From contig JAOAHJ010000039.1 of assembly GCA_026415295.1 (NCBI GenBank), positions 1 to 64,000 on the forward strand: DNA of 64,000 nt. The letters run 5' to 3'. The first letter of the stretch is position 1. Every line of letters begins with the position of its first letter. The notes beneath the pieces were generated by a model. It was not told the DNA's origin and did no database searches. It was given only the letters and a program-made list of their open reading frames with translations. Positions 23,802 through 44,950 of the stretch are shown here, in pieces. The translations under genes were made by a program, and so were the position numbers. This stretch comes from Spirochaetota bacterium (GTDB lineage Bacteria > Spirochaetota > JAAYUW01 > JAOAHJ01).

Positions 23802-25049
23802 TTACCTTTTATACTTATACTCAAGAAGATTAATAACTCTTTCAATTTCATTTTTAACTATACAAAATCCTTCATCAAAACCCATTCCTGGTTTTGCAAG
23901 TAATCTTTCTGATTGAACAGCAATAGCTATGTCAGTACAAATTTTAGCTGAAATGTCTGTCTCATTACAAGTACCTCCCTGATAAGCTTCCATTCCAAAT
24001 TTCTTACAATAAATAACACTTTCAATTATATTATGAACTGAACCAAGATCTGGAGTTTTTATTTGTACCATATGACAAGCTTTGGCATCTGTAAATTCAA
24101 CTATATCTTCATAAGTATTACACCATTCATCAGCAACTATTTTTACTCTTGACCCAAAAGACTCAAGTTTCTCTTTTATCTTTTTTAAATATTCTATCTG
24201 TTTATTCTTTTCACCTAAATCAACAGGTCCTTCTATATATAGTTGAAATTCTTGAGCATACTTTTCAAGTGAGGCAAGATAATCTGCTATTTTATCTATA
24301 TTGTTTTCAAATATTATTCCAATAGTACCATAAACATCAATATGAATTGTTGGAATATAATTATTGTGAAGTCGTATTTTTTTTATTCTATTTGCAATCC
24401 AACTAATATAATCTTTCAATAATTCTCCCTTTTTCCCTAGCTTTGTATCTACATTGTTTATTAAACCATGTGGGAGAACATCTACTTCTTTTAATATCAT
24501 CTTATCTACATTAATAAATCTATCATCTCCAGATTGACCAAAAATAGGAACCCTTTTTATAACTTTAGGTAAATTATATTCCCTCCATATTGTTTCAACA
24601 ATAGTTTCGCAATGTGCTTTTGAAACAGCATCTAATAAGGCTTGACTGATACCGTATCTTATAGCAGTATGTACTCTTTTACCATCAATAACAAGATCAT
24701 CAATTTCTTTTGCAAGTTCTCTAAAATTATTAACTTCTCTACCTAGCAATAAAGGCTTTATATATTTTTCAATAAAAGGAATATAATTTTTTGCTAAAAA
24801 TAGAGGATCTCTTCCACCAGCTCCTGAATATTGAACGGCAGCACAATCTCCAATAGCTATATTTCCATTTTCTAAAATAATCATTATAGAAATTGACTCT
24901 CCAGCTTGTCTAATAGCCTCAAAACCTGGTAATTCAGGTCTACCTTCGTAAATAAAACCATCCTGTTTAGCACCTTTTTTTATTGCTTTTTGGTCATCAA
25001 AGAAAAAACCCGTTTTACCAGCTGATAAAATTATATCTTTAATTTTCAT
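23802..25049 (-). CDS. mal: Methylaspartate ammonia-lyase
   Basis: Deaminates (2S,3S)-3-methylaspartate to mesaconate; enolase superfamily. It is 415 aa, matching the roughly 413-aa Clostridium tetanomorphum enzyme. Metal-ligand segments are IHIDVYGTIG (Asp), QLYIEGPVD (Glu) and KIVADEWCNTYED (Asp); the catalytic-Lys region is HMVQIKTPDLGS, and the substrate loop EAYQGGTCNETDISA is intact. GGAGAACAT leads directly to the ATG. It lies between GlmE and the DUF1446 gene on one transcript. No lesion is seen; identification is secure. Confidence 0.95.
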   Translation of the reverse strand: MKIKDIILSAGKTGFFFDDQKAIKKGAKQDGFIYEGRPELPGFEAIRQAGESISIMIILENGNIAIGDCAAVQYSGAGGRDPLFLAKNYIPFIEKYIKPLLLGREVNNFRELAKEIDDLVIDGKRVHTAIRYGISQALLDAVSKAHCETIVETIWREYNLPKVIKRVPIFGQSGDDRFINVDKMILKEVDVLPHGLINNVDTKLGKKGELLKDYISWIANRIKKIRLHNNYIPTIHIDVYGTIGIIFENNIDKIADYLASLEKYAQEFQLYIEGPVDLGEKNKQIEYLKKIKEKLESFGSRVKIVADEWCNTYEDIVEFTDAKACHMVQIKTPDLGSVHNIIESVIYCKKFGMEAYQGGTCNETDISAKICTDIAIAVQSERLLAKPGMGFDEGFCIVKNEIERVINLLEYKYKR

Positions 25050-25183
25050 ATGTTCTCCTTCTTTTTATTTTATATAACTTCTTAATTCTATGTTATAAAA
25101 ATTAAATTTTATAAATTTTTTTTTTATTTTTGCATTCCTACATCTTATAACTATAATTTTTTTATGAATTAATAAAAATGTTA

Positions 25184-26650
25184 TTAATTTTTTCTTGGCC
25201 TTCCAACAAGTCTTCCTTTACTTATAGCATAAATGTCATCAACAAGCATCTGAAATGTTGGTTCTCTTTTTTCAAAATCAGCTCTCTCTCTTGTCTTAAT
25301 TTTATGTATCTCTTTTACTTCATTTTTCATCGGTACAAAACCATTATCTAAAATTCTAATAGCACCTGTATTATCCCTTACAGGCATTATTTTCCCTTTA
25401 TTATAAATAGATGGTGCAAATGGAACATCAAGAATTCCTGCTTCAAAAGATTTTACAACCCCTATAGCAAGATCTCCTTCTCCTGCTTCTATAACTTTAT
25501 CTAAAAGATACCTTACTTCCTCTTTTATTAAATTTATTTCTTTCTCAAGTAGAGGAGATCTATCCATTGATTGCTCATATAACATATTTACAACTTGCTT
25601 TGTAGCTTTTAAACCTTGAAGATTAGCTTCTTTTGTAGGAATACCCAAAGCTTCATGTGGTGTTTTTACAATAACTTTTGTAGCCTTTGCAAGTGCTGCT
25701 GTAGCTGCACCCCATGAAATCACTCCAAAAGCTCTTGCCTCATCTTCTGGGAAACCTCCCATCCATTGATGAAAAACTGTAGTTAATTCATAATCCTGAT
25801 AATTGAATTTGTCAAAGTACTCTTTAGCTAATTCTCTTAAAGAGATAACAGCAGCAGTATCTTGAATAAGGTTACCACATTGTCCATATCCAAGAGTTAT
25901 AGATTTAACTCCTTGTTCCAAAGCAAGAATACCCTCTATTATTGCTATGGTATTTGAAATAAATGGAGGCACAAGAGTTCCTGTTAAAGGGCCAAAAGGT
26001 TCAACATTTATCCTTATTCCATTCTCCTCATAATATCCTACTAATCTATACACATATTGCCAATCTCTTAATGATTTTTCTAATGGTACAGATTTAGCAT
26101 AAGGGATATTATATGAAATACCTCCCCCCTCAAAAGATGTAAAACCTGCTGCAAGTGTTATTTCTGCAAGAAGTCTTGCATCTGGAGTACCATGCCTTAC
26201 TTGAACTGGTTTATTTAAACTTTCAATAACCTTTCTACAATTATGAACCCCCCAATTTACCGCAGGAAATCCATTTAATAATGATCTACCTGCTTCTTTA
26301 GATCTTTGAATACCTTTTTCACATTCAGTATATCTATTTTGTCTTGTATATGCATCTATTGTTGTTGGTAAAAGATCAGCTTCTTGTTCAAGATATCTTA
26401 AAAGTTCAATATGCTCTTCAAGCAGAGCAACTCCAGCTCTTGGTTGAATAAGAGTCTGTTTCTTCTCATCAGCAATCTTTAAAACATTAGAAAATCTTTT
26501 ATTTCCTGAAATCTTTCGCTGATACTCTATCCCCTCATTAATATCCACTATATCTTTTCCTGTGGGCCATCCCTGTAATACTTCTTTTCTCTCTTCAAAA
26601 AATAGATCAATAGGAATTTTTTTGTTCTTCAATTCTCTTTTGGTTTCCAT
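25184..26650 (-). CDS. glmE: Glutamate mutase epsilon subunit (methylaspartate mutase, large subunit)
   Basis: 488 aa TIM-barrel subunit that, with the B12-binding GlmS, converts (S)-glutamate to (2S,3S)-3-methylaspartate using adenosylcobalamin. The substrate-binding arginines known from the Clostridium cochlearium structure have apparent counterparts in [12 protein letters not shown] (Arg71), DAYTRQNRY (Arg103) and [13 protein letters not shown] (Arg152). Other conserved blocks are [18 protein letters not shown] and [25 protein letters not shown] precedes the ATG. It follows glmL by 126 bp; that gap carries no obvious signal. Confidence 0.96.
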
Positions 26651-26776
26651 TTTATATCTCCTCTAACAATTTTTTGTATTATTTATATTTTTTAATATTT
26701 ATAAAAGTTTCATTTCTCATTTTCTTCTAACTATATTTATCTTAATTTTTCAAATAATACCAATTACTATTTTTAA

Positions 26777-28417
26777 TTATGAAGAATACTTAATTTTTTC
26801 TTCCAAATTCATCATAAGGCATAATGTTGCTTCATATTGATACTTTTTAGAAATATTTGCCAGTATAGGTAGCAGATATTCTTTATCTCTTAGATAAACA
26901 AAGTTTTCTGGCAAAAGAGCTATCTCTTCTTCTAATTCATAATATTGTTTTTTGTTAAAAAAAGATTCATATGAAAATGTTAATAATTCTTTTGGATTAA
27001 ACATCTCCATTCTTGCAAGATAACCCCCACTTCCTATCATTGTTTTAACATTTTTTAAATTTTTTCCATACTGAATAAATTTCTCACCATTTATGGTAAA
27101 TATTCTCTTGTATTTGCCAGCATGTCTTAATCCGGAAAACTTAATACATATAGAGGCAATAATTTCATCAAAAAAAATTTCTAAATCATTTTCAGGTAAA
27201 TAAGATGTATTTTGATTAACCTTACAAACATAATCCCAAAATCTATTAACGAAATCTTCTTCATTATCAATCATCTCAATTAATTTAAATCCTTTAACTT
27301 CTTTTTTTATCTTAAAGATTTGTTTTACATAATCTACTCCACATTCAAAAACCGCCTTCGCAGAGACCCTCATCCCGAGATCACCTTCAACAGTTCTTTT
27401 TACTGTTGGTTCAATAATTCCTTTTATCATTACATTACTATCTTCTATTACATCTCTATGATAAGAATAAAAATCTGTGGTTGCTCCACCCATATCAATT
27501 GCAATAAATGATTCCCAATCATAATTTAAAATATTTTCAACCTCTTTGATTTTTATACTAAAGTTATTGATATAACTATCAAATGATTTTAAATTACTAA
27601 CATCTGTTTTTATTCTATTATTAATATTTAAATTTAGTTCCTTTAAATTTTTCTTTATTTTTTTAACATTTTCTGGTATTCCACTAATAAAATTAAAAAC
27701 TGATAAAGGAGTTGGTTCAGGGTAAAACCCTATTTTTTCTACAATCTCATCTAAACCCTTGCCATGTATTATATTTTTAAGAAATATATCTCTAATACTA
27801 CTTTTTGCAGGCTCTATATTTATCTTCTCAATTTCAGGCATTACATTTTCTGTTATTTTTATTTCAAAATTTTTTCTTATAAATATGTCAAAAATCTCAT
27901 CAGCACAAGCAGTATTACCAGCATAAAGGATTACTGGCTTTATATCCATGTTTGATAGCATTTGAGCATTATGAATATTTATCTCTTCATTACCGCCATC
28001 AGTACCACCAGTGAAAAGTATAATATCAGGATTTTCCTCCTCTATTTGTTTTATATTTTTAACAGTTAATCTATATGAAAAAGATTTTGTTACTTTACCC
28101 CCAGCAGATAATGCAGTAAGTCTAGCTATTTTTAATGTTAATTCTGGAACAATTCCTATAGCTATAATTTTTAAGCCCCCCTTAGCTGATGAAGAATAAA
28201 AAATATCTAAATCTTTATAATTTTTAATATCTTGAAAATTTTTTATATTTTCATTTTCCAATAACTTATAGAGAACCTCAAAAAAACCATCAGCAAGATG
28301 GTTTACTGTTGTTGAGATTTGATATCTTTTTGCAGGTAATAAAATATTATCATACAGATAAAATAAAAAGCCTTTTGTATAGGTTGAGCCTATATCAATA
28401 CTAATCAATTTTTTCAC
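26777..28417 (-). CDS. glmL: GlmL/MutL, glutamate mutase reactivation-type ATPase
   Basis: 546 aa, ASKHA-fold ATPase found between the glutamate mutase subunit genes and thought to reactivate or protect the B12 enzyme. ATPase motifs: SIDIGSTYTKGFLF at the N-terminus, ILFTGGTDGGNEE, SFIAIDMGGATTDFYS and VKTMIGSGGYLARM. I set the start at the GTG 28415-28417, because GAGG (complement of 28427-28430) is 9 nt upstream and the ATPase strand starts immediately after; a TTG 15 nt earlier is less likely. It overlaps the end of glmS by 17 bp, so the two are translationally coupled. Confidence 0.92.
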   Translation of the reverse strand: MKKLISIDIGSTYTKGFLFYLYDNILLPAKRYQISTTVNHLADGFFEVLYKLLENENIKNFQDIKNYKDLDIFYSSSAKGGLKIIAIGIVPELTLKIARLTALSAGGKVTKSFSYRLTVKNIKQIEEENPDIILFTGGTDGGNEEINIHNAQMLSNMDIKPVILYAGNTACADEIFDIFIRKNFEIKITENVMPEIEKINIEPAKSSIRDIFLKNIIHGKGLDEIVEKIGFYPEPTPLSVFNFISGIPENVKKIKKNLKELNLNINNRIKTDVSNLKSFDSYINNFSIKIKEVENILNYDWESFIAIDMGGATTDFYSYHRDVIEDSNVMIKGIIEPTVKRTVEGDLGMRVSAKAVFECGVDYVKQIFKIKKEVKGFKLIEMIDNEEDFVNRFWDYVCKVNQNTSYLPENDLEIFFDEIIASICIKFSGLRHAGKYKRIFTINGEKFIQYGKNLKNVKTMIGSGGYLARMEMFNPKELLTFSYESFFNKKQYYELEEEIALLPENFVYLRDKEYLLPILANISKKYQYEATLCLMMNLEEKIKYSS

Positions 28418-28832
28418 CGAATCTTTCCTCAATATCTTTTTTAAGATATTCTATAGCTTTTTTTAGATCAGCATCTGGACCAAAAACTCTATCAAAACCC
28501 ATTTTTTTAAATTTTTCTTCAACTTCTGCAAAATCATGTTTACCAACAACAAGATTTCCGCCAACATATAAAATAATATTTTCCAAACCTCTTTCGATGC
28601 ATCTATCCCTTAAACCTTCACAATCAAGCTCCCCTTGCCCATAAAGAGATGAAACGAGAATAGCTTTAGCATTTGATTCAATAGCAGCATCAATAAACTC
28701 ATCTTGACTAACCATTACTCCAAGGTTTATAACATTAAAACCTGCTTCCGAAAATACTTTTTCAATAATTTTATTACCAACTGCATGACAATCAGAACCA
28801 ATTACTCCTGTAACTATATTAATCTTTTTCAT
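28401..28832 (-). CDS. glmS: Glutamate mutase sigma subunit (B12-binding)
   Basis: 143 aa, cobalamin-binding subunit of glutamate mutase. The DxHxxG motif is at Asp14-Cys-His16-Ala-Val-Gly19, His16 being the expected lower axial ligand of cobalt; SSLYGQGELDCEG and the later GG in YVGGNLVVGKHDF complete the Rossmann-type B12 site. Its ATG lies inside the last codons of the GntR gene (14-bp overlap) with AAGGGG as ribosome-binding site, so regulator and enzyme are made from one message. Confidence 0.96.
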   Translation of the reverse strand: MKKINIVTGVIGSDCHAVGNKIIEKVFSEAGFNVINLGVMVSQDEFIDAAIESNAKAILVSSLYGQGELDCEGLRDRCIERGLENIILYVGGNLVVGKHDFAEVEEKFKKMGFDRVFGPDADLKKAIEYLKKDIEERFGEKID

Positions 28833-29973
28833 TTAAAACCCCTTCTTTTATAAAATCTTTAAATTTTTTTCTATAAATTTCATTAATCTTATCTTCTATT
28901 AATAATAAAGAACCATTGTCAATTTTATAATTAAAATATATTATCATATTTGAATAATTTTTAAATAAATAATCAATTTTCATTAAAATATTTTCATCTA
29001 AATTTATTCTTAAATTCTTATTTTCTTTAAAGTATCTTAAATAATTACCAATATTAAAATATTCTGGAATTATAAAACAATCATATTTTTTTAAATTCTC
29101 ATTTATATATTTCTCAAGTTCTATAAAATTATAACTTTCAAAAAAACTTAAATTTTTATTTAAATAATTTTCAATTGGGAAAAAATCAACATTTTTATAT
29201 ATATCAAACTTTTTAAGATAGTCTTTTATTATTATAGAAAATTTTGAAGAAAAAGTAATTACAAGCTTTTTTGCATTTTTGTCAACTTTTGCAAGTTTAA
29301 GTACTGTTTTAGAATCAGGTTCAATATTTACTTTTATAAGATTAACTTCGTTTTCAAACTCTCCTTTAAATTTTTCATAAATCTCTTTATAATGTTTCTT
29401 TGTGGTTATAATAAATTCAAAACTATTTTTTAATTGTTTAAAAATATTATCATAATTTCTTTTATAAAAATACTCAATTGGATAAAAGAAAAGATTTATC
29501 TTATAAAGGTCTCTTAATTGTTTACTTAGAATAAAAAAGGATTCTATATTACAATCTATAAAAGCTAAATTTATTTCAGCAACATTTAATTCTTTATAAG
29601 ATAAAATAGAATTAAAAAAATTCTTTATATCATTGAAACTAAAATCTTCTTTTAAGAGTTCATCAATAAGATTATTTATTAGAATGTAAGCTTTCTCTTT
29701 TCTACTTTGGACAAAAGCCAATGAATCAAAATTTATATAATAACCACTACCTTTTTTAGAATAAATCAAACCCTCATTTTTTAATTTATCATATACTTTA
29801 TTTATAGTTAATCTTGAAACATTTAATAAACTTGAGAGCTCTCTTTCAGAAGGAAGTTTTTCTAATTCTTTATTTATTATTTTGCTCCTGATAAAGTTTA
29901 AAAGCTGAATATAGAAGGGGAATTTTGAATTTGAATCATAAGAAAAATTTTTAAAAATACTGGCATAGTCCAT
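28819..29973 (-). CDS. GntR-family transcriptional regulator of the methylaspartate operon
   Basis: 384 aa. The N-terminal winged helix is typical of GntR: FPFYIQLLNFIRSKIINKEL, LPSERELSSLLNVSRLTINK, VYDKLKNEGLIYSKKGSGYY. The remaining 300 residues do not match the aminotransferase domain of MocR-type or an evident UTRA/FCD domain; strands such as NVAEINLAFIDCNIESFF suggest a periplasmic-binding-protein-like or other ligand domain that I cannot name. I prefer the ATG at 29971-29973 over a GTG at 30003, because the promoter's -10 box overlaps that GTG. No Shine-Dalgarno is evident at either. It heads the operon and presumably senses glutamate or an intermediate. Confidence 0.85.
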   Translation of the reverse strand: MDYASIFKNFSYDSNSKFPFYIQLLNFIRSKIINKELEKLPSERELSSLLNVSRLTINKVYDKLKNEGLIYSKKGSGYYINFDSLAFVQSRKEKAYILINNLIDELLKEDFSFNDIKNFFNSILSYKELNVAEINLAFIDCNIESFFILSKQLRDLYKINLFFYPIEYFYKRNYDNIFKQLKNSFEFIITTKKHYKEIYEKFKGEFENEVNLIKVNIEPDSKTVLKLAKVDKNAKKLVITFSSKFSIIIKDYLKKFDIYKNVDFFPIENYLNKNLSFFESYNFIELEKYINENLKKYDCFIIPEYFNIGNYLRYFKENKNLRINLDENILMKIDYLFKNYSNMIIYFNYKIDNGSLLLIEDKINEIYRKKFKDFIKEGVLNEKD

Positions 29974-29980
29974 ATAATAA

Positions 29981-30051
29981 TTTATTGAATTGGTATTTGC
30001 CACATATTATTAAAATATAAATAAATGTCAAGAAAAATATTTTATTGAATT
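29981..30051. repeat. Exact 11-bp direct repeats flanking the gntR promoter
   Basis: TTTATTGAATT occurs at 29981-29991 and again at 30041-30051, 60 bp apart and on either side of the gntR promoter. The spacing is close to six helical turns. This is a candidate operator pair for autoregulation by the GntR protein, or chance in A/T-rich DNA. Confidence 0.3.
30004..30031 (-). promoter_or_regulatory. Putative sigma70 promoter of the gntR-glmS-glmL-glmE operon
   Basis: On the minus strand a consensus TTGACA (complement of 30026-30031), 16-nt spacer and TAATAT (complement of 30004-30009). The start point would be near 29997, downstream of the possible GTG at 30003 and upstream of the ATG at 29973. 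Confidence 0.55.
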
Positions 30052-30114: not shown

Positions 30115-31587
30115 ATGCAAAAATTTATATTTAATTTAAATAAAATTTCTTTAAAAATTAAAAATAGTTCTAATAATTTTATAAAATGTTTTAAAAGAAA
30201 AAGATTTATTTTTATAATAATTTTTACATTCTTAATTTTTTTATTATTTATAATTTTTAATGAAGATCTTTTAGCTTCTGAAAAAATAGAAGAAAGTTAT
30301 AAAATAGTTACAATTAATAAAATTAGAATAATTATAAATGAAGAAATTTATGATTGGGAAAATTTACACATTTTTCCAAAAAAAAGACCAACCAACTATA
30401 CTGATCCTTTAACAATTATTTCATTTTTAAGTATAAAACCAAAGCAAACTATCAAATTAAATATCCTGGAACAAAAAATATTTAATATAGAAAAAATATT
30501 AATAAGTTCAGCACTTTTTAGTTCTGTATGTATTGATATTATTGAATTATCTCAGGATAATAATCTTGTAAATATAATTGTTGAAGTAAAGGAAGGATTT
30601 CTATATAAATTTGGCGGTGGTTCTATATATGGTATTTTTGGGAAAAACAATCTTAGTGGTTTAAGAAAATCTTTTACTATTACATTAGGCTATAATCTTA
30701 ATGGAATAAATTATACAGATCAACTATTATTCAATACTAACTTTTTTCTAGATTTTAGTTTATATTATAAAAATAGTTTTGGTTTCAAAGAAATTAGCTT
30801 TAACAGGATTGATTTAAATTTATCATTAGGTTATAGGATAACTCCTTTTTTTGAGATTATTTTAAATTCTTTAGTTAAATTCCAAAATTCTAATCTTATA
30901 AATGAACTTAGTAATTTTTTTATTCAAGGAAGTTTTTATTCAATAGAGGAAACATTAAGTTTTAACTACATTTATTATTTTTTTATTAATAAAAATAAAA
31001 AAAATGATTTCTATTTTAGAGGTTATTTAAAATTTTATCCCTCTTTAATATATTTTTATAATTTAAAATTTGAAGATTCATTTCAATTTATTAATTATAA
31101 TATAGGTCCAATCTATTCAATAAATATTAAAAATAGTTTTTTATTCGAATCAAAATATTTTTCCATAGGTTTTATATCTCAACTTTCTACTTCTACATAT
31201 AAATTAGATTATTTTAACTCCAAAAATATGTCCCTTTCAGAAGAACCATTTGTTAGAAGCCCCGTAGATATAAATCTTACATTTCCTGATAATTTTTTTA
31301 TAACAAGTTTTGAAATAAGATCCCCTTTTATAAAATTATTTAATATTAATTTTTTAGCTTTTGAATTATCAGTTTTTAGTTTTTATGACATAGCTATATG
31401 CAAAATTTTATATAAATACTCTAATAGTTTTAATCTATATTTAAATAATCCTTATTATCTCCATGCTTTTGGAATTGGAATAAGATTTGGTTTCGCACAA
31501 CCTGTAAACACATATTTTACTTTGACATTTGGTATAAACAAAGATAATAATTGGAAATTAATATTTTATTCTGGTAAAGGTTTTTAA
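30115..31587 (+). CDS. Predicted outer-membrane beta-barrel protein with one POTRA-like domain (Omp85-like)
   Basis: 490 aa, not assigned to a named protein. It has a positively charged N-terminus and a hydrophobic export segment (about 32-50, ending DLLAS). A domain of about 75-155 reads like a POTRA repeat: TIKLNILEQKIFNIEKILIS and the following ALFSSV, then NIIVEVKEGFLYKFGGGS. From about 165 to the end there are alternating hydrophobic/aromatic strands with Asn-rich turns, finishing with Phe (FYSGKGF), the classic C-terminal signal of outer-membrane barrels. It is much shorter than BamA, so a single-POTRA Omp85 or TamA/two-partner-type protein is more likely. No Shine-Dalgarno is evident. 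It is divergent from gntR and convergent with the formyltransferase gene. Confidence 0.6.
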   Translation: MQKFIFNLNKISLKIKNSSNNFIKCFKRKRFIFIIIFTFLIFLLFIIFNEDLLASEKIEESYKIVTINKIRIIINEEIYDWENLHIFPKKRPTNYTDPLTIISFLSIKPKQTIKLNILEQKIFNIEKILISSALFSSVCIDIIELSQDNNLVNIIVEVKEGFLYKFGGGSIYGIFGKNNLSGLRKSFTITLGYNLNGINYTDQLLFNTNFFLDFSLYYKNSFGFKEISFNRIDLNLSLGYRITPFFEIILNSLVKFQNSNLINELSNFFIQGSFYSIEETLSFNYIYYFFINKNKKNDFYFRGYLKFYPSLIYFYNLKFEDSFQFINYNIGPIYSINIKNSFLFESKYFSIGFISQLSTSTYKLDYFNSKNMSLSEEPFVRSPVDINLTFPDNFFITSFEIRSPFIKLFNINFLAFELSVFSFYDIAICKILYKYSNSFNLYLNNPYYLHAFGIGIRFGFAQPVNTYFTLTFGINKDNNWKLIFYSGKGF

Positions 31588-31602: not shown

Positions 31603-32703
31603 TTATATATTTATTTTAATTAATCTATTTAAGTAAGATTTAATAATTTCTATAATAATAGAATTATATTTTAAATTTATAGATTTTAATAATAATTTAA
31701 ATGAAGTTCTTCTCTTTCTTTTCCTTGGTGGAATAATCCATTCTCTAAAAAACTTTTCACATTCATTATCAACAAGCATAATACAAAATCCATCTTTTAC
31801 TTTCAATATTGGCTGATTTCTAAACTTACCTCTACCCATATATAAACCCATTAAGGTACCAGGTTTTATTTTAGTTAAGATTTTAGTCTTATAAAGCTCA
31901 AGGTCAAAAATTATAAATTCTTCTCCATTTATTTTCACCTTAAGTCTTATTCCTATATCCTGTCCGCAAAAAGCTCTTAACTTTCTCCATATTATTTCAC
32001 AATTATCTTTTTCAAAATCAATAAAACTTAATTCTTTAGCTTTTTTTAAAGTCGCATAAGATCCAGATGATTGAATTTTAGTAAAATTTTTTTTTGTTTC
32101 TAGTTTATCCAAAGATTTTAATATCGCATCAACACCTAGCATTGTTAAATTATATAAAACTTGAATTGGAGTTGAATATTTTGAAATTTTATAAATCCCA
32201 GTTTTTGCAATAAGATCTCCTTTATCAAAATCCTCTTCAACTTTATGTACAGTTCCCCATATCTTTTTCCAACCTTCAAGTATAGCAAAAGTATCAGGTT
32301 CCATACCACGCAAATAAGGTAAAGGACCTGGGTGATAATTTATAAAACCATATCTTGGTATAGAGAATAACTCCGATGGTATCCAATTCCCATAAAAAAC
32401 AATACCTATATCTAAATTTAATTTTCTTATTTCATTTAACCAATTATTAATATTTGTCTTAACTTCATCTATTTTTAATTTTTCTATGATCTCAGTTCTT
32501 TTTAATTTTAATTCATCTGGTAAAAAAAATCTTTTTTTCATTTTAACTTCAGGATATAAATTTATAGGGTCATCTTTATAAATAATAAGCCCTTCAATAT
32601 TATATCCCTCTTTTTCAAGTTTTTCAAACAATATCATTCCATAATCATCCCTTCCAGTTGGCCTATTTCTACCTAGATACAATAAAACATTATTTATAAT
32701 CAT
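31603..32703 (-). CDS. Formyltransferase-family protein (Fmt/ArnA-type N-terminal domain)
   Basis: 366 aa. The formyltetrahydrofolate-binding signature is visible as YGFINYHPGPLPYLRGMEPD, followed by WGTVHKVEEDFDKGDLIAK, the conserved active-site Asp segment. The later SGSYATLKKAKELSFIDF and WRKLRAF resemble the linker to the C-terminal OB-like domain of methionyl-tRNA formyltransferase. The first 60 residues are unlike Fmt and the C-terminus is basic, so it may formylate something other than Met-tRNA. The start is reset to the ATG 32701-32703, preceded by GAGG; an upstream in-frame reading to 32778 would add a hydrophobic tail. It follows the sensor cyclase by 87 bp. Confidence 0.7.
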   Translation of the reverse strand: MIINNVLLYLGRNRPTGRDDYGMILFEKLEKEGYNIEGLIIYKDDPINLYPEVKMKKRFFLPDELKLKRTEIIEKLKIDEVKTNINNWLNEIRKLNLDIGIVFYGNWIPSELFSIPRYGFINYHPGPLPYLRGMEPDTFAILEGWKKIWGTVHKVEEDFDKGDLIAKTGIYKISKYSTPIQVLYNLTMLGVDAILKSLDKLETKKNFTKIQSSGSYATLKKAKELSFIDFEKDNCEIIWRKLRAFCGQDIGIRLKVKINGEEFIIFDLELYKTKILTKIKPGTLMGLYMGRGKFRNQPILKVKDGFCIMLVDNECEKFFREWIIPPRKRKRRTSFKLLLKSINLKYNSIIIEIIKSYLNRLIKINI

Positions 32704-32790
32704 TAAAACCTCAAAAAAATATTTATATATTAATAATTTATTTTTAACAAATATTTTGATAAAATTATTTAATGCCAAAAAGTAATTTAG

Positions 32791-35607
32791 TCATTTTTCA
32801 TAAAATATTAAAACATTCTCTTTAATATTTTCTTTTAAATAATAATTACATATTTCAATATAGAAGTTAGTTGCTTTATCATCAGGAAATTTTTCTTCAA
32901 TTTTTTTAAAAACATTTAATGCTTTATTATAATCATAATTTTCAAAATATTTCACTCCAATATGAAAATGTTCAAGGTATTTTATTCTTTTTATTTTATC
33001 TTCTTTTTTAAGTCCATCTAAAACTTCAAAAATTTTAACAGGATTTTCTTTACCTTTAACTCTTACTTTTCCAAGATATCTAAAAACATAAATTTCTTTA
33101 TTTATTAATTTATCATAAGAAAATTCACTTATTATTATTGAAGCATCAAATTTCCTTGTTAATCCCTCTAATCTTGAAGCTAAATTTACATTATCTGATA
33201 TAACTGTAGAATCTATTCTTTGCTCTTCACCTAAAATACCAAGCATAAGCAACCCAGTGTGAATTCCAAATCTGACATCTATTTCTGGTAATCCCTTTTC
33301 TTTCTGCTTTTTATTGAAATCAATGCTTGTCTTTCTTATTTCTATTGCTGTTTCTATAGCATCACCAGCATAATTTGGATACAGAGCCATTATTCCATCT
33401 CCCATATACTTATCAATAAAACCACTATTTTTTCTAACTAAAGGCCCAATTATACTTAAATATGAATTAAGGAAATTAAAATTTTCAGAAGGGGAAAGTT
33501 TTTCAGAAATCTTAGTAAACCCAACTATATCTACAAACATTATTGTCATCTCTTTTTGAACTTGATCTCCAAGTTTAAAATCTGTAATATTTTGTTTATT
33601 AAGAAATTTTAAAAACTCTTCTGGCACAAATTTAAAATATGTTTTATTTAAATTTGTAATCTCTGTTAAATATTTATTAATGTAACTAACCATTTTGTTA
33701 AAAGAATTTGCAAGATCTTCTATTTCGTCTCTTCCTTTAACTTTAACCTGAACTCCCCAAACCCCTTTTTCTATCATTTGGGTACCTTCTTTTAATCTTT
33801 TAATTGAGTTTAATAAATAATATAAAATCAAAAATAAAAAAAATATTATAAATAATGTTAATAAGATTACATTTCTTATAGTTCTCTTTATTAATTCCCT
33901 ATTTTTCATTTCAAATGCAATATTATCTTTTCCTATTTCAACTAATCCCATTACATTTTGATTATCATCATAAATAGGCCCCACTCCATAAAACCAATTG
34001 CCCCATTGATCAACAGATTTTTCTATTGCAATTTCTCCTTCATAACTTTTTGTATATATGCTGTTTGTTTCATTCAAATAATCAAATGGAGTTTTAACAG
34101 TTATATCATCATTTAAATACATTATTGAATAAATATAATTATCAATTTTTTTATGTAATGCAAAATAAAAATCTTTATTCCACTCATCTTTATTAAAGTT
34201 GAGCAGAGTTAATATTTTTTCTTTTATTCTTACATATGGTTCAGACATAAAATCTTCAGGTGAATTTAGCTTATTTAAATCTTGGCTATTAATACTTTTT
34301 GATACCATTTGAATCATTGTTGCTATTTTATTATTAAGGAGTGATTCATACCTATCTATCAAATCTTTATAAATAATAAATGAAGTCAAGGTTATTGAAA
34401 TAATAATTAAAGGAATAAATATAATCAACATTTTAAAGAAAATGGAAAATTTTTTATTCATTACTATTTTATATGTATTAATTAATAAAAAAATAAATAT
34501 TATAACTAAAATAATCGCAATCGCAAAAAATAGATAAAATTTAATAATATTTAACTTTTTATTTAGAATATAATCAAATACTTTAATTATTTTTCCATCT
34601 ATATCAACCTCTATGCAAAATTTTTCAGATGTTAGAAGTAAATTTCTACCTGAAACTTTAATATTATAATAGTAATTATAAATATTTGTATAATTTTCTA
34701 GACTTTGATCATTAAAACTAGTTTTAAATAAAAATTCTTTATTGTTATAATAAATTTTAACAATATTTTTATGTAGAAGATCACTTAATACAAAAGTATC
34801 ATCTATTTTATTTATAGAGTAAGGTAAACTATTAGGTTCTTTATATATTAAATTAAATTTCCCATCTTTAACTTCATAAATTTCACCTCTCTTTGTTGCA
34901 ATATAATATTCATTTTTTTCATCAGCGAATATATTAAAAATAAATAAATTAGCCTTTTCAAAATTAAATATTTCTTTATTATTTAACTTTTCTAAATCAA
35001 TATTATATTCATATTGTTTAACACTATTATTGTCAAAAAGAAAAAAATATAACATATTTTTTTTATAAATTAAATTTTTATATAAAGATCTTTGAACATT
35101 TATATAAGATAATTCTTCATTTTTATAGTTTCTTTCATAGATTAACTTATCAAATTTACCATATTTATTATACTTAATCACAGAAATTCTATTTATATAA
35201 AAACCATTATCATCAAGAACAGAATTTAAAACATATAAGTTTTCCTCATTATCAACTGCTATATCAACTACTTGATAAAAACCTCTATTTGACTTTTTAC
35301 TACTATTTATAATATATTTTAATTTATAATTACTATCAGCTTTAATTATTCTTTTAGAAGAATTATCAACAATATAATTATTTTGGTTTATATCTTTTAA
35401 AAATATTGATGGATAAGAAAGGTAAATCTCTTTTGATTTATAATTATAATCTTTTAAGAAAATAATAAAATATAATAAAACAATTAGAATTAAAATATCT
35501 AGAAGAATAATTAAACTTTTTTTTATTAACTCATTTTTTAAAAATGAATTCAAAAAAATTTCACTAAACTTTAATTTTAATTTTTTCATACTTTTAAAAT
35601 TAATCAT
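32791..35607 (-). CDS. Transmembrane class III adenylate cyclase with propeller and Cache-like sensor domains
   Basis: 938 aa. Order seen: TM helix (about 28-50); extracytoplasmic NHL/propeller-like repeats (about 60-340; e.g. NNYIVDNSSKRIIKAD); two TM helices (about 350-415); a Cache-like extracytoplasmic domain (about 420-575, with DQWGNWFYGVGPI and GLVEIG); TM; HAMP (about 605-660); class III cyclase from 687. Both metal Asp residues are present (Asp693 in FVDIVGFT, Asp737 in KYMGDG), with Lys733 and Thr801 as adenine-recognising residues and Asn808/Arg812 in NLASR, so it should make cAMP. A TPR-like tail closes the protein. Its ATG overlaps the stop of the MFS-fusion gene (ATGA), implying coupled expression. 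Confidence 0.88.
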   Translation of the reverse strand: MINFKSMKKLKLKFSEIFLNSFLKNELIKKSLIILLDILILIVLLYFIIFLKDYNYKSKEIYLSYPSIFLKDINQNNYIVDNSSKRIIKADSNYKLKYIINSSKKSNRGFYQVVDIAVDNEENLYVLNSVLDDNGFYINRISVIKYNKYGKFDKLIYERNYKNEELSYINVQRSLYKNLIYKKNMLYFFLFDNNSVKQYEYNIDLEKLNNKEIFNFEKANLFIFNIFADEKNEYYIATKRGEIYEVKDGKFNLIYKEPNSLPYSINKIDDTFVLSDLLHKNIVKIYYNNKEFLFKTSFNDQSLENYTNIYNYYYNIKVSGRNLLLTSEKFCIEVDIDGKIIKVFDYILNKKLNIIKFYLFFAIAIILVIIFIFLLINTYKIVMNKKFSIFFKMLIIFIPLIIISITLTSFIIYKDLIDRYESLLNNKIATMIQMVSKSINSQDLNKLNSPEDFMSEPYVRIKEKILTLLNFNKDEWNKDFYFALHKKIDNYIYSIMYLNDDITVKTPFDYLNETNSIYTKSYEGEIAIEKSVDQWGNWFYGVGPIYDDNQNVMGLVEIGKDNIAFEMKNRELIKRTIRNVILLTLFIIFFLFLILYYLLNSIKRLKEGTQMIEKGVWGVQVKVKGRDEIEDLANSFNKMVSYINKYLTEITNLNKTYFKFVPEEFLKFLNKQNITDFKLGDQVQKEMTIMFVDIVGFTKISEKLSPSENFNFLNSYLSIIGPLVRKNSGFIDKYMGDGIMALYPNYAGDAIETAIEIRKTSIDFNKKQKEKGLPEIDVRFGIHTGLLMLGILGEEQRIDSTVISDNVNLASRLEGLTRKFDASIIISEFSYDKLINKEIYVFRYLGKVRVKGKENPVKIFEVLDGLKKEDKIKRIKYLEHFHIGVKYFENYDYNKALNVFKKIEEKFPDDKATNFYIEICNYYLKENIKENVLIFYEK

Positions 35608-38576
35608 ACTACCCTCTGCTTTTTCCTTTTAATAAAAGAAAATAAGAATGGGAAAAAGTAAATAATAGAAATTACAATCATAATAATTCCAAATAAAAAC
35701 ATACCATTTTTTTCTTTAAATAATAATATCCATCCAAATATTATAGGAGCAATAACTTCTGCAAATTTTGCAAATAATTCAAAATATGTTACAGATAAAT
35801 CTTCACCTATTTTTTTTACAACTGGTATTTCAAGAAAAAAATCATTTTGAAAAACAACTCCAAAACCTTCAACTATTCCCATAAAAATTATAGTAAGAAT
35901 CAATCCTATTAAATTTTGATTAAGTGCAAAATATATTATCGTTAAAGCCCAAAAAATAGATGTTAAAAATATACCGGTTCTGTTACTTATATATTTTTTC
36001 ATAAATCCACTTAAAAAAGGTCCAAGATAAATAATCAAAATACCATTTAATATGAACAATCTTCCAACATCTGATATATTAAGATTAATTTTTTCACTAA
36101 ATAATGGCAAATAATAAAATAAGAACATACCTGCTACATAAGTTGGCATAATTGCAAAAATAAGATAAGATATAACTTTCCAGTTAAATAAAAGTTGAAA
36201 TATTTTTGAATACATATTAACATTAGAAATATTTCTATTTGTCTTGATATCTTCATTTTTTATAAGATATTTTAAACCAAAGATAAAAGAAATTATAATT
36301 AATATAACTGCTACATAAAAAGTTAACTTATATCCATATTGATCAGCAAAAAAAGCACCAATAACAACACCAGCATTTACACCAGCTAAAGCTCCAGAAT
36401 AATAATGAGAAAATGACAAACTTCTTTTTACTTGATCCATTTCACAATTTATACAACTTCTTAGTGAAATTAAAATAAATCCTGAACCCAAACCAACAAT
36501 AGCTCTAGCAAAAATAAATAAATAAGGATTGTCAAATAAAGCAGAAAATAATAACCCTAAAGTAGAAATAATTATTCCAAATATCATAACTTTTCTAAAA
36601 CCGCTAAAATTTACAACTATTCCCCCTAATAATAAAGCTATACTAAACAATAACATTTCCGATGATAAAGGCAGGGCTATAATTAATTCTTGTCCCCAAT
36701 TAAAAACAAAATTATTTCCTTTATCAATAAATTTGATGTAAATATCTCTCATCATCAATGGGATAAATGAAATAGACATACTTATTGCAAAAGTAAAAAT
36801 AAAATTAAATGGTCTTACAAAATATGTGTCTGAAAATTCAGAATTTTTTTTATCCTTCTTATCAACAATATCAGTGATAAATAAAAATTCAAAAAATATT
36901 ATTATTAAAACAACAAGAATAGTAGCAATATCAAGAATGACTCTCTTTATAAGATTCCAGTTTTCTAAATTGAAACTATAAAAATCAGAACCAATTTCTA
37001 TTAATCCAATGATTTCCCCCTTTGAATTTTTAATCGGCCCCATTGAATAAAACCAAGAACCCCATTGGTCTTCATCTATCTCAAAAACTATTTCACCTTT
37101 TATTGCTTTTGAAGGGGCACTATCTTCTTCTTCATACCATCCTAATATAGGATAATTTATTCCAATTTGATCATTAAGATACATGTAACCATATAATTTA
37201 TTATCAATAACTTTGTAAATTGCAAAATAATAATTTTCATTCCATCTATCATTGTTATAATTTAAAGCTTTGTGTAAAAATTCTCTTAATTCCATGTAAT
37301 CTTTGCTTAAAAAATCATCTTTTGTCTTAATCCTTTCTAAAATATCTCCATTTAAATTACTCGAAATCATTTGGACCATAAGTGAACATTTTTGATCAAC
37401 TATATCAATATACCTATTATTAAAATTTTTTAACATTAATTTTGTTATAAAAAATGTTGACAAAGTAGCAACTATAACTATTAAAATTACATTAAAAAAT
37501 ACTTTTGAGTTTTTTCTTATTATTGTTATTAAAAAACTAAAAATAAATGCAATTATATTAACAATTGTAAAAATAAAAACTATCCAGAATATATTAATAA
37601 AAAGAAACTGGCTATTTTTATAATAACATTTATCATATAAATGTATATTTTTAGTTTCGATATTAACCATTAAAATTTTATCATTAAAACCAGTAAATAG
37701 AACATCTTTAGAAGAATTTAAAATAAATATATTATAAAATATTCCTTCATCATTTAAATCTTGTTCAGAAATAAATTTTTCTAAAACACCATACTTGTAT
37801 CTATAAATAGATCTATCTAAAATATCAGAAAAATATAAGTTATTAAATGTATCAATAGCAATATCATAAGGTGAATTAATAATGTTTCTATCAACAAAAT
37901 TTGTAAAAAATGATCCTTTTGAATAATCTAAAAGTATTATATCACCTTTCTTTGTTATTAAAAGCCATTGAAAATTATTAAATTCTATTATGTTATAAAT
38001 AAGAATTGAAGCATATTGAAAAAGAAATTTTTTAACTTCGATAATTTTTTTAAGACTAATATCATAGATATAGTAAACAATTTCATCTTTATCTAAATAA
38101 AACCATTTAATTTGTTTGTTAGAGTAAATTATTTTATTTATTTTCCCTTTCTGTATAAGATTTGAATCTTTTTCTTTATATTCAATCTTGAATATTTTAT
38201 CTAAATATTTTCCATCTTTTGAATATCTTACAATTTCTTCAGATATAGTATAAAAGCCCCCTTTATCCGGAATCCTATTTACTACATAAAGATTTTCATT
38301 ATCATCAAAAACAAAATCTTCAGCATAAAAGAATTTTCCATTATCTCTTAATCCTCCATTAATAATATATTTAATATAACCTTCTTGATCGAATTTAATT
38401 ATTCTTCTTTTAGAATTATCTATTACATAAATGTTATTACTTCTATCTCCAACTATTCTATAAGGCATATTAAATGATACAAATTTAGTAAAAGGTCTAA
38501 TATTTAAAAAACCTTTATTAAAAAATATAAAAAATAATAAAATTATAATAAACACCAAATATAATTTTTTTAACAT
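35604..38576 (-). CDS. Propeller/Cache-like sensor fused to a Major Facilitator Superfamily transporter domain
   Basis: 990 aa. The first 560 residues repeat the architecture of the downstream cyclase: TM1, NHL-like propeller (NNIYVIDNSKRRIIKFD), two TM helices, then a Cache-like domain with DQWGSWFYSMGPI and GEIIGLIEIG. HAMP and cyclase are absent; instead about 580-985 is an MFS domain of some 10-12 helices, with LLLGGIVVNFSGFRKVMIFG in the loop 2-3 position and ARAIVGLGSGFILISLRSC as the motif after helix 4. This is a sensor-transporter fusion that I do not recognise as a described family. It is the first gene of a two-gene unit with the cyclase (4-bp overlap). Substrate and ligand are unknown. 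AAAGGG lies 8 nt before the ATG. Confidence 0.82.
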   Translation of the reverse strand: MLKKLYLVFIIILLFFIFFNKGFLNIRPFTKFVSFNMPYRIVGDRSNNIYVIDNSKRRIIKFDQEGYIKYIINGGLRDNGKFFYAEDFVFDDNENLYVVNRIPDKGGFYTISEEIVRYSKDGKYLDKIFKIEYKEKDSNLIQKGKINKIIYSNKQIKWFYLDKDEIVYYIYDISLKKIIEVKKFLFQYASILIYNIIEFNNFQWLLITKKGDIILLDYSKGSFFTNFVDRNIINSPYDIAIDTFNNLYFSDILDRSIYRYKYGVLEKFISEQDLNDEGIFYNIFILNSSKDVLFTGFNDKILMVNIETKNIHLYDKCYYKNSQFLFINIFWIVFIFTIVNIIAFIFSFLITIIRKNSKVFFNVILIVIVATLSTFFITKLMLKNFNNRYIDIVDQKCSLMVQMISSNLNGDILERIKTKDDFLSKDYMELREFLHKALNYNNDRWNENYYFAIYKVIDNKLYGYMYLNDQIGINYPILGWYEEEDSAPSKAIKGEIVFEIDEDQWGSWFYSMGPIKNSKGEIIGLIEIGSDFYSFNLENWNLIKRVILDIATILVVLIIIFFEFLFITDIVDKKDKKNSEFSDTYFVRPFNFIFTFAISMSISFIPLMMRDIYIKFIDKGNNFVFNWGQELIIALPLSSEMLLFSIALLLGGIVVNFSGFRKVMIFGIIISTLGLLFSALFDNPYLFIFARAIVGLGSGFILISLRSCINCEMDQVKRSLSFSHYYSGALAGVNAGVVIGAFFADQYGYKLTFYVAVILIIISFIFGLKYLIKNEDIKTNRNISNVNMYSKIFQLLFNWKVISYLIFAIMPTYVAGMFLFYYLPLFSEKINLNISDVGRLFILNGILIIYLGPFLSGFMKKYISNRTGIFLTSIFWALTIIYFALNQNLIGLILTIIFMGIVEGFGVVFQNDFFLEIPVVKKIGEDLSVTYFELFAKFAEVIAPIIFGWILLFKEKNGMFLFGIIMIVISIIYFFPFLFSFIKRKKQRVV

Positions 38577-42760: not shown

Positions 42761-44950
42761 TCATTTTTCAATACTATTTAATTTAATTTGGTAATATTTA
42801 AGAATATTATCATCATTATTCCTTACAATCAATTTTAATAAAATATCTTTTGCAATTTCAAATTTTTTATTATTAAAAAACAATATCATTTCTTCTAGCT
42901 CTTTTTTATAAAAACTCCTTAAGTATTGCTCTCTTTCAGGAAAAATACCCAAATATTCATAAAGAGTCGTTTCTTCATCCCCCTTTTTCATATTGCCGAT
43001 ATATCTCATTAACTCTTTGTCATCATCTTTAATTATTTCATAAAGCCCTTCTGAAACCATTACTTTACACCTATACTCATCATTAATAACCCCCATAATT
43101 TTTAAATACTCTAAATCTTCAGAAATCAAGGCATCATTTAATTTTTCTTCACTCCCAATTGTTCCAATTACTATATCTCCATAATGCAATACTATGAAAA
43201 AGTCCAATCTTTTTTGCTCTTCTAGAAGAATATTTTTCTCTGTTTCCTCAAGTATTTCTTTTGATGAAAATAACAATATTTCAGGATTTGTAGGAAAAAG
43301 AACAAGAATCCCTTCTGAACTAAATTTTTCAATAAAACCAAAATTTTTTCTAATAATTTTACTCCAAATATTAAAATACATGTTCATTATTTTAATAATT
43401 TCTTCATGATTAAGTTTAATGGAAAGTTCATTATAATTATTAATTTTTATAAGCATCATACCCATTTTAGTCTGAAGATTTTCTCCAGTTATAATTTTAT
43501 CCTTAAAATTATCATTTTTTAAATAGTTTAGCAAAGTTTGAGGAACAAACTTTTGATAAAAAATATTTAACTTCTCAAGCTCATTAGACATTTTAATTAT
43601 TTCTTTATGTTCATCAGAAAACCTAATAGAAAGAATTAAGGATTGAATATAAATAAAAGAAGCAATAGAGATAGGCATTAGATTTATTTGCAAGCCAAAA
43701 CCAAAATCTTTTATAATATCATGAAAAGTTGATAAAATTAAAATTAAAATTCCGAAAAAGAAAATAAAAGTATATTTGTATTTTTTTATAGAAGATATTA
43801 TTAAAATGTAAATTAAGTAAATCATAAAAAATAAAGCAAATATTTCAAAAATTATTAACAAATAATCAATATATTTCAATGGAATAATTAAATTTAATAA
43901 GATTAAAAATAAAGGGAAAAAATTAAATAATTTAAATAAAAACTTACTATAATATTTTTCAAATAATTTACCAATAAAACTTGAAAATGTAGGTAAAATT
44001 AAAAATAAAAATATCTGATATATTCTTAGATCCCAATTTATATTTAATTCTGGAAATATTTTATTTATAATAAGTACACCTGTAGAAATTATCCTATAAG
44101 AATATACTATAGAAAAAAAACCAAAATATAAATACGCCTTTTCTTTATAACCAGCAAAATATAAAATAATATGGTAAAAGCCCATAATGAAAACAATTCC
44201 AAAAATAAAAAGATCTGATGCTGTTTGAAAAATATTTTTATTAATAACTTCCTTTTGATTTCCAATTTCTATTGGTAAATAAATGCCACTTTTAAAGTAA
44301 TAATCAGATTGAGTTTCTATAATTATTTCTATTTTATCATATCCCTCCTTAAAAGAGTAATAAAATACATCAGATGAGAATTTTAATTTTGCTTTTTTTA
44401 TATCTCTATTTATGACACCTTTTCTAAATATTTCTTCACCATTTATATAAAAAGTATAAGCTCCGCCAATCCCTCTAATTAAAAATCCTATATTTTTAAT
44501 ATTACTTTTATTCTCTAAAATTAATCTATAAGAAGCAACACCTCTATAAGGATAATTTTTGCCAAATTTATCTTTATTTTTCTGCCAATATGATGGGACA
44601 AATATAAAGTCCCTGTATTTATTAATAAAATCTTCATTTTGATAATCAATTTTTTCTGAAATTAAAAGTTTATCATAATAAAATTCCCATTCCCCATTTA
44701 ATTTAAGAATACTATTTGATTTAAAAATATTGTTATCAATAATGCAATAAGCTTTATTTATCTTCAAATCAAACTTATTAGAAATAGTATGCTTATTAAT
44801 TAAAACATAAAAATAAAAAAGAAAACCTATAAAAAATATAATTGATAAAAAGTAAAAAAAATAAGACAAATTGTATCTGTTTTTTAGATTAACAAAATTT
44901 TTTTTAATATTTTTTGAAAATTTTTTAAAATTATAATAGGATTTTTCCAT
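42761..44950 (-). CDS. 7TM-DISM receptor with a catalytically degenerate cyclase domain
   Basis: 729 aa. After an N-terminal anchor (about 30-50) there is a beta-sandwich ligand domain of the galactose-binding/7TMR-DISMED2 kind (LNGEWEFYYDKLL, VPSYWQKN, YRLILEN, FYINGEEIFRKG; about 80-230). Seven membrane helices follow (about 245-450), then the pre-cyclase motif YQKFVPQTLLNYL. The domain from 496 aligns without gaps to a class III cyclase over its first 50 residues, but the metal-binding Asp of FVDIVGFT is Lys502 and that of KYMGDG is Glu546, and the Asn/Arg pair is missing. I infer a pseudocyclase that signals by binding or dimerisation. The tail resembles that of the active cyclase at 32791-35607. 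Confidence 0.82.
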   Translation of the reverse strand: MEKSYYNFKKFSKNIKKNFVNLKNRYNLSYFFYFLSIIFFIGFLFYFYVLINKHTISNKFDLKINKAYCIIDNNIFKSNSILKLNGEWEFYYDKLLISEKIDYQNEDFINKYRDFIFVPSYWQKNKDKFGKNYPYRGVASYRLILENKSNIKNIGFLIRGIGGAYTFYINGEEIFRKGVINRDIKKAKLKFSSDVFYYSFKEGYDKIEIIIETQSDYYFKSGIYLPIEIGNQKEVINKNIFQTASDLFIFGIVFIMGFYHIILYFAGYKEKAYLYFGFFSIVYSYRIISTGVLIINKIFPELNINWDLRIYQIFLFLILPTFSSFIGKLFEKYYSKFLFKLFNFFPLFLILLNLIIPLKYIDYLLIIFEIFALFFMIYLIYILIISSIKKYKYTFIFFFGILILILSTFHDIIKDFGFGLQINLMPISIASFIYIQSLILSIRFSDEHKEIIKMSNELEKLNIFYQKFVPQTLLNYLKNDNFKDKIITGENLQTKMGMMLIKINNYNELSIKLNHEEIIKIMNMYFNIWSKIIRKNFGFIEKFSSEGILVLFPTNPEILLFSSKEILEETEKNILLEEQKRLDFFIVLHYGDIVIGTIGSEEKLNDALISEDLEYLKIMGVINDEYRCKVMVSEGLYEIIKDDDKELMRYIGNMKKGDEETTLYEYLGIFPEREQYLRSFYKKELEEMILFFNNKKFEIAKDILLKLIVRNNDDNILKYYQIKLNSIEK

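Follow-up and report, generated by a model that had tools for sequence, protein, structure and literature searches.

A 64,000-nucleotide stretch of a Spirochaetota genome (the window, by which we mean the whole stretch of DNA that was analysed) carries a three-gene operon encoding an MFS protein with an N-terminal sensor module, a class III cyclase with a twin of that module, and a formyltransferase-like enzyme. We interpret the operon, with a probability of about 0.45, as a modify-transport-sense module, in which the product of the enzyme would be moved by the sensor-gated MFS domain, probably outward, and its presence reported as cAMP. What the analysis itself shows is the content of the operon, the layout of the domains, the presence of the catalytic residues, a conserved pairing, the link with the enzyme and joint inheritance.

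The gene pair and its duplicated sensor

The sensor-MFS and sensor-cyclase genes lie on the minus strand of the source genome, a 2.1-Mb assembly of 39 contigs, and their coordinates and the ATGA shared by stop and start confirm the 4-bp overlap that an earlier note on this DNA had described. Sequence inspection places a GAGGG-type ribosome site close upstream of the overlap, and gene maps of genomes G091, G149, G316 and G360 display an identical 4-bp overlap. The features of the operon are:

35604..38576 (-): sensor-MFS gene, 990 aa (ORF; MFS_1 match, E=1e-25; AlphaFold2 model)
37623..38489 (-): NHL-type beta-propeller of the MFS protein, residues 30-318 (profile against PDB; strands in the model)
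36984..37445 (-): sCache_3-like domain of the MFS protein, residues 378-531 (weak profile matches; model topology)
35622..36830 (-): MFS domain, 12 helices, residues 583-985 (PF07690; AlphaFold2; Foldseek)
35604..35607 (-): ATGA stop-start overlap of the sensor-MFS and sensor-cyclase genes (sequence)
32791..35607 (-): sensor-cyclase gene, 938 aa (ORF; HAMP and Guanylate_cyc matches; AlphaFold2 model)
34564..35442 (-): propeller of the cyclase protein, residues 56-348 (alignment to the MFS sensor; profile)
33925..34374 (-): Cache-like domain of the cyclase protein, residues 412-561 (40% identity to the Cache of the MFS protein)
33682..33822 (-): HAMP domain, residues 596-642 (PF00672, E=9e-9)
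33040..33558 (-): class III cyclase domain, residues 684-856 (PF00211, Guanylate_cyc, E=7e-19)
31603..32703 (-): formyltransferase-like enzyme, third operon gene, downstream of the cyclase (PF00551, E=5e-13)

The sensor-MFS protein runs from TM1 through the propeller, TM2-TM3, the Cache domain and TM4 into the 12-helix MFS domain, and the sensor-cyclase has a TM, propeller, two TMs, Cache, a further TM, HAMP, class III cyclase and a C-terminal helical tail (weak TPR). The common front of about 550 residues, already proposed in the earlier note, is borne out by a BLASTP alignment of 542 aa (32% identity, E=1e-71) that ends at the start of HAMP or of MFS, and by the same order of secondary structure in the N-terminal halves of both AlphaFold2 models (pLDDT 84 and pTM 0.71 for sensor-MFS, pLDDT 81 and pTM 0.59 for sensor-cyclase). 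Single propeller sequences score under the Pfam cut-offs, and it is the profile built from homologues that reaches NHL propellers in the PDB (Pizza7H, E=9e-27; PknD 1rwi, E=4e-13). A CitA match of the Cache profile (E=0.008) and Pfam sCache_3 matches in 14 of 39 Cache members (best E=5e-4), all of them weak, weakly suggest that the second sensor domain is sCache_3-like.

Within the window pair the propellers are 28% and the Caches 40% identical. Across eight pairs, the Cache columns conserved in both sensor lineages hold the same residue in 29 cases and a different one in 0; the corresponding propeller counts are 20 and 1. Caches of one locus were also more alike than Caches of different loci (p=0.0002, seven loci), an excess that persisted (p=0.009) when we used letters little driven by base composition, and the propeller displayed no within-locus identity excess after base-composition correction. 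The agreement between the twin Caches fits a common ligand class without proving it. Of the coupled system envisaged in the earlier note, the pairing stands, whereas the notion that both proteins answer the same ligand is supported only indirectly, by this column agreement and the slight within-locus likeness of the Caches.

The MFS domain is complete, as had been suspected: Pfam MFS_1 (PF07690) matches residues 591-911 (E=1e-25; 90.6 bits against a cut-off of 33.4), and the AlphaFold2 model is predicted to contain all 12 MFS helices. R588, N734 and invariant Gly/Pro positions are conserved across 21 proteins, and TM5 is glycine-rich, which presumably recalls antiporter motif C. The best Foldseek matches of the model are the exporters VMAT2, NorA and MdfA (TM-score on target 0.81–0.85, with NorA and VMAT2 at 0.82–0.85), and PepT, sialin and the galactonate symporter are likewise among the matches; multidrug models also match the domain, but under their cut-offs. 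The predicted fold and the glycine-rich TM5 favour export as the direction of transport, although the structural likeness to exporters leaves the direction unfixed, since PepT, sialin and the galactonate symporter match too.

The other protein carries HAMP and an apparently active class III cyclase, in line with the earlier reading, with all catalytic residues present (D693, K733, D737, T801, N808 and R812). Their pattern is one we take to be class IIIb, and the Lys/Thr pair (K733 and T801 here) is the adenine-selecting pair of class III cyclases. The metal-binding D693 and D737 and the transition-state N808 and R812 are kept in all paired cyclases, and the modelled cyclase domain matches CyaC/CyaB in fold. 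The sensor-cyclase is thus predicted to make cAMP.

The third gene

Downstream of the cyclase and beyond the interval covered by the earlier note, which overlooked it, lies a gene at 31603-32703 whose product matches Formyl_trans_N (PF00551) at 49.6 bits against a cut-off of 26.1. The ORF could begin at 32778, but homologues favour the ATG at 32703. The N-x-H...D triad (N122, H124, D160) is invariant in six homologues, and amine formylation is the usual reaction of this fold. As in Met-tRNA formyltransferase, ArnA and the VioF N-formyltransferases, fold and triad are present, but the protein stays far under the model cut-offs of fmt, ArnA and dTDP-sugar formyltransferases (82 bits against the equivalog cut-off of 201.5 of the Met-tRNA formyltransferase model TIGR00460) and is without the ArnA partner domain. 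A housekeeping Fmt was considered and ruled out by the cut-off, the sequence gap and a second Fmt-like gene in the genome.

The close family of the third gene (E<=1e-40) occurs in exactly 7 of 393 genomes, which are the seven with an MFS-first pair, and the next homologues follow at E=2.5e-26 and weaker. The gene adjoins the pair in six of the seven; the G091 copy lies next to a cyclase domain on another, second contig, an arrangement suggestive of a split locus. At other sensor-MFS loci the neighbouring enzyme is an LPG_synthase_C protein (cyclase-first loci and family-level group f42) or a GNAT (G182). The enzyme slot is thus filled regularly, but by exchangeable enzymes.

Recurrence and descent in Spirochaetota

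Propeller-Cache-MFS proteins were found in about 22 of the 393 Spirochaetota genomes searched, and the matches in G091 (E=2e-210), G063, G316, G202, G360, G153, G194, G182, G188 and G149 are close to full length. The idea of a pair unique to the source genome was rejected on this search. A signalling gene is adjacent on the same strand in 17 of the ~22: a sensor-cyclase in 10, a SpoIIE phosphatase in six and a chemoreceptor in one. The MFS gene comes first in seven of the sensor-cyclase pairs (G000, G091, G063, G149, G316, G202 and G360, where the neighbour in G091 was counted as a sensor-cyclase on a contig that stops inside the gene, past its propeller) and the cyclase in three (G153, G194 and G188). 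These 10 genomes fall into five family-level groups (f1, f32, f47, f48 and f19), and conserved pairing in several lineages, which the earlier note had named as support for a system, is therefore observed; the counts include related genomes, which are non-independent observations.

The SpoIIE and chemoreceptor partners, outputs that the earlier note had also missed, occur in two further family-level groups (f18 and f42). All six genomes with an adjoining SpoIIE phosphatase belong to one genus, and the chemoreceptor, a methyl-accepting chemotaxis protein, adjoins sensor-MFS in G365. A cyclase lies a few genes away in G182, G299 and G335, the loci of G358 and G294 are limited by contig ends, and the gene map of G237 contains no signalling neighbour of sensor-MFS. 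In the SpoIIE-type loci (L083-L088) a conserved protein of 445-460 aa precedes the MFS gene, and the one tested has no Pfam match; in some of them a short protein resembling an RsbW-like kinase is encoded beyond it.

Class III cyclase domains number 6-17 per genome in eleven of the genomes named above, which corresponds to a chance adjacency of about 1% per locus. With a signalling gene adjacent in 17 of the ~22 loci, chance adjacency is ruled out. Because the gene set recurs in distant relatives, a real, unnamed system is likely, one that would couple the transport of a molecule to a signal reporting it.

When 42 sensor modules were placed in a maximum-likelihood tree, two changes sufficed to account for the MFS label, against a shuffled mean of 14. 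The cyclase sensor of the window falls with its G063 and G149 counterparts (98/97) rather than with the sensor of its own neighbour, and the subclades of MFS sensors and cyclase sensors match. Deep forks are poorly resolved and strict monophyly is accordingly unclaimed, but on these trees the sensor duplication probably predates these families, with joint inheritance of the pair.

Double-sensor relatives and occurrence outside the phylum

Other spirochaetes encode a sister family, MFS proteins with two smaller extracytoplasmic sensor domains, annotated just as "MFS transporter" and without a named family in the libraries used. They share the TM-sensor-TM-TM-sensor-TM-MFS topology and a homologous MFS domain (24–26% identity in spirochaetes), but their first sensor is Cache-sized rather than a propeller, and they are accompanied by a separate binding protein. 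Sister clusters contain an ornithine-racemase-like protein, a TrpX-like binding protein, a Ddl-type ligase and often a cyclase; like the propeller loci, they include an enzyme (Ddl, GNAT or GCS2) and, in several cases, a cyclase or SpoIIE neighbour. The possibility that the cluster Ddl is the housekeeping enzyme was ruled out in six of nine genomes, which have another Ddl elsewhere (in G217 about 8 kb from the sister cluster); G028 and G220 were uninformative. In two genomes, G217 (L097, 5679-8060) and G220 (L098, 3948-6332), the sister-cluster binding protein consists of two domains in tandem. In G314, four tandem propeller-Cache-cyclase genes (L043, 5049-15646) adjoin a racemase-SBP-double-sensor-MFS-Ddl cluster, and at least some of these cyclases are probably inactive because both that were aligned have lost metal-binding Asp residues.

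The sister family extends to Proteobacteria and Desulfovibrionia: Azospirillum has a cluster of racemase, SBP, MFS and GNAT, Aureimonas one of MFS, GCS2, SBP and SpoIIE, and Nitratidesulfovibrio carries a similar cluster. On a Vibrio gigantis plasmid (L115, 5808-10995) a Ddl-type ATP-grasp, a double-sensor-MFS and two binding proteins lie inside a type VI secretion cluster. The Azospirillum sp. B510 cluster adjoins a gene for a 1123-aa protein (L111, 7992-11363) in which a periplasmic binding protein, an MscS-type channel and a cyclic-nucleotide-binding domain are fused. An Oscillospiraceae plasmid encodes a propeller-Cache-MFS homologue of nearly full length, which covers 94% of the query at 24% identity and has no signalling neighbour. 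Outside the phylum the search covered plasmids and one insensitive genome-contig scan, with patchy coverage; the nine loci returned by the scan are all from Spirochaetota, and because many known members were missed this says nothing on absence elsewhere.

Proposed function and alternatives

The common denominator of these loci is an amine-modifying or ligating enzyme, a sensor-carrying MFS protein and a signalling output, to which we add by inference the direction of transport, the substrate, the common ligand, gating and cAMP output. In the proposed module the cytosolic formyltransferase-like enzyme would add a formyl group to an amine-bearing small molecule, and in the simplest account the product, or its precursor, would be both the MFS substrate and the sensor ligand. 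The MFS domain would carry the modified compound across the membrane, most likely outward, while the periplasmic propeller and Cache of the same protein would read the compound or a linked signal and, by way of TM4, gate its transport. On the cyclase, the twin sensor may read the same ligand class and drive cAMP production through HAMP. Speaking against the module are the signalling neighbours missing at some sensor-MFS genes and the weak within-locus likeness of the propellers.

Transport could instead run inward, with sensor-MFS taking up an external nutrient that the twin sensor reports as cAMP and the enzyme processes inside the cell. CitA and DcuS, relatives within sCache_3, sense nutrients, and the weak CitA match as well as PepT, sialin and the galactonate symporter among the structural matches agree with uptake, but the best fold matches are exporters and the exchangeable enzymes are transferases and ligases, with no catabolic enzymes among them; we consider import fairly unlikely. 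Envelope defence, in which the sensors would detect an antimicrobial or envelope damage, the MFS protein would export drugs or flip lipids and the enzymes would modify components of the envelope, appears less probable still. Relatives of the LPG_synthase_C, formyltransferase and Ddl folds identified at sensor-MFS loci (MprF, ArnA and VanG) act in cationic-peptide or glycopeptide resistance, and the MFS domain does match multidrug models, though under their cut-offs. The third gene, however, has no ArnA partner domain and scores far under the ArnA cut-off, and the GCS2, GNAT and racemase neighbours of relatives misfit a single envelope pathway.

The MFS domain might also be a non-transporting receptor like UhpC, the pair then forming a complex devoted purely to signalling, perhaps a heterodimer built on the Cache and TM modules common to both proteins. 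An adjacent signalling partner in 17 of ~22 loci would suit such a complex, and a common sensor could permit heterodimers, but a complete 12-helix fold with R588, N734 and the invariant Gly/Pro kept across 21 proteins speaks for transport and the dedicated enzyme gene argues for a substrate, which makes a pure receptor improbable in our view. Least credible is a mere tandem duplication whose products are neighbours through history, with different ligands and uncoupled functions. The modest identity of the window propellers (28%) and the lack of a propeller within-locus excess after composition correction would be expected of it; adjacency across five family-level groups in both gene orders plus a third gene, the 0 conserved-but-different Cache columns and a chance adjacency of about 1% per locus would not.

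Relation to known systems

UhpB/UhpC, CbrA and BceAB-BceS are transporter-coupled sensors. As in UhpB/UhpC, a transporter-type protein and a membrane signalling protein would serve one stimulus, but the partner here is a HAMP-cyclase and Pfam finds no kinase domain in either protein; unlike in all three systems, the sensor module is duplicated onto the MFS protein and the cyclase. CyaC and CyaB, class IIIb enzymes with HAMP, share the catalytic fold and the catalytic residues including the K/T pair, whereas the window cyclase bears a propeller and Cache front that, to our knowledge, neither of them has. PknD of Mycobacterium tuberculosis, an NHL-propeller receptor kinase without Cache, MFS or cyclase, likewise uses an extracytoplasmic NHL propeller as sensor.

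Each domain is known already, as is transporter-coupled sensing as a kind. No Pfam or NCBIfam model covers the whole length of sensor-MFS or sensor-cyclase, consistent with the earlier statement that the architecture has no named family, and no paper on it was found in the open literature searched, although an earlier notice of the enzyme neighbourhoods is still possible. A sensor duplicated on transporter and cyclase together with an exchangeable enzyme has a real chance of being a new class. The fuller conjecture of an unnamed modify-export-sense class, in which exchangeable amine-modifying enzymes (formyltransferase, LPG_synthase_C, GNAT, Ddl or GCS2 ligases) would make a small signal, sensor-MFS would export it and a twin-sensor cyclase, phosphatase or chemoreceptor would read it, is tentative and, taken as a whole, somewhat unlikely. 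If true, bacteria would have a new way of communicating by small molecules, the propeller version of which occurs in Spirochaetota and on a single Oscillospiraceae plasmid and the double-sensor version in several phyla, and proteins publicly recorded just as "MFS transporter" would gain a function. Transport, sensing and second-messenger synthesis would be tied to one duplicated sensor, the dedicated enzyme offers a direct handle on the ligand, and, if both sensors share that ligand, the pair would provide a model, open to testing, of how a transporter is gated by a periplasmic receptor of its own.

Other genes in the window

Convergent with the formyltransferase-like gene is a plus-strand gene (30115-31587) for a 490-aa outer-membrane-barrel-like protein, Omp85-like by eye. 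Further along, minus-strand genes at 23802-28832 were recognized by eye as methylaspartate ammonia-lyase, glutamate mutase E, a MutL/GlmL-like protein and glutamate mutase S, a set that reads as the methylaspartate pathway of glutamate fermentation, with a GntR-type regulator upstream (28819-30003). A 729-aa membrane protein (42761-44950, minus strand) has a cyclase-like C-terminus (E=4e-20 to the window cyclase) that has lost its metal and transition-state residues (LIKINNY, EKFSSEG), and is likely a pseudo-cyclase.
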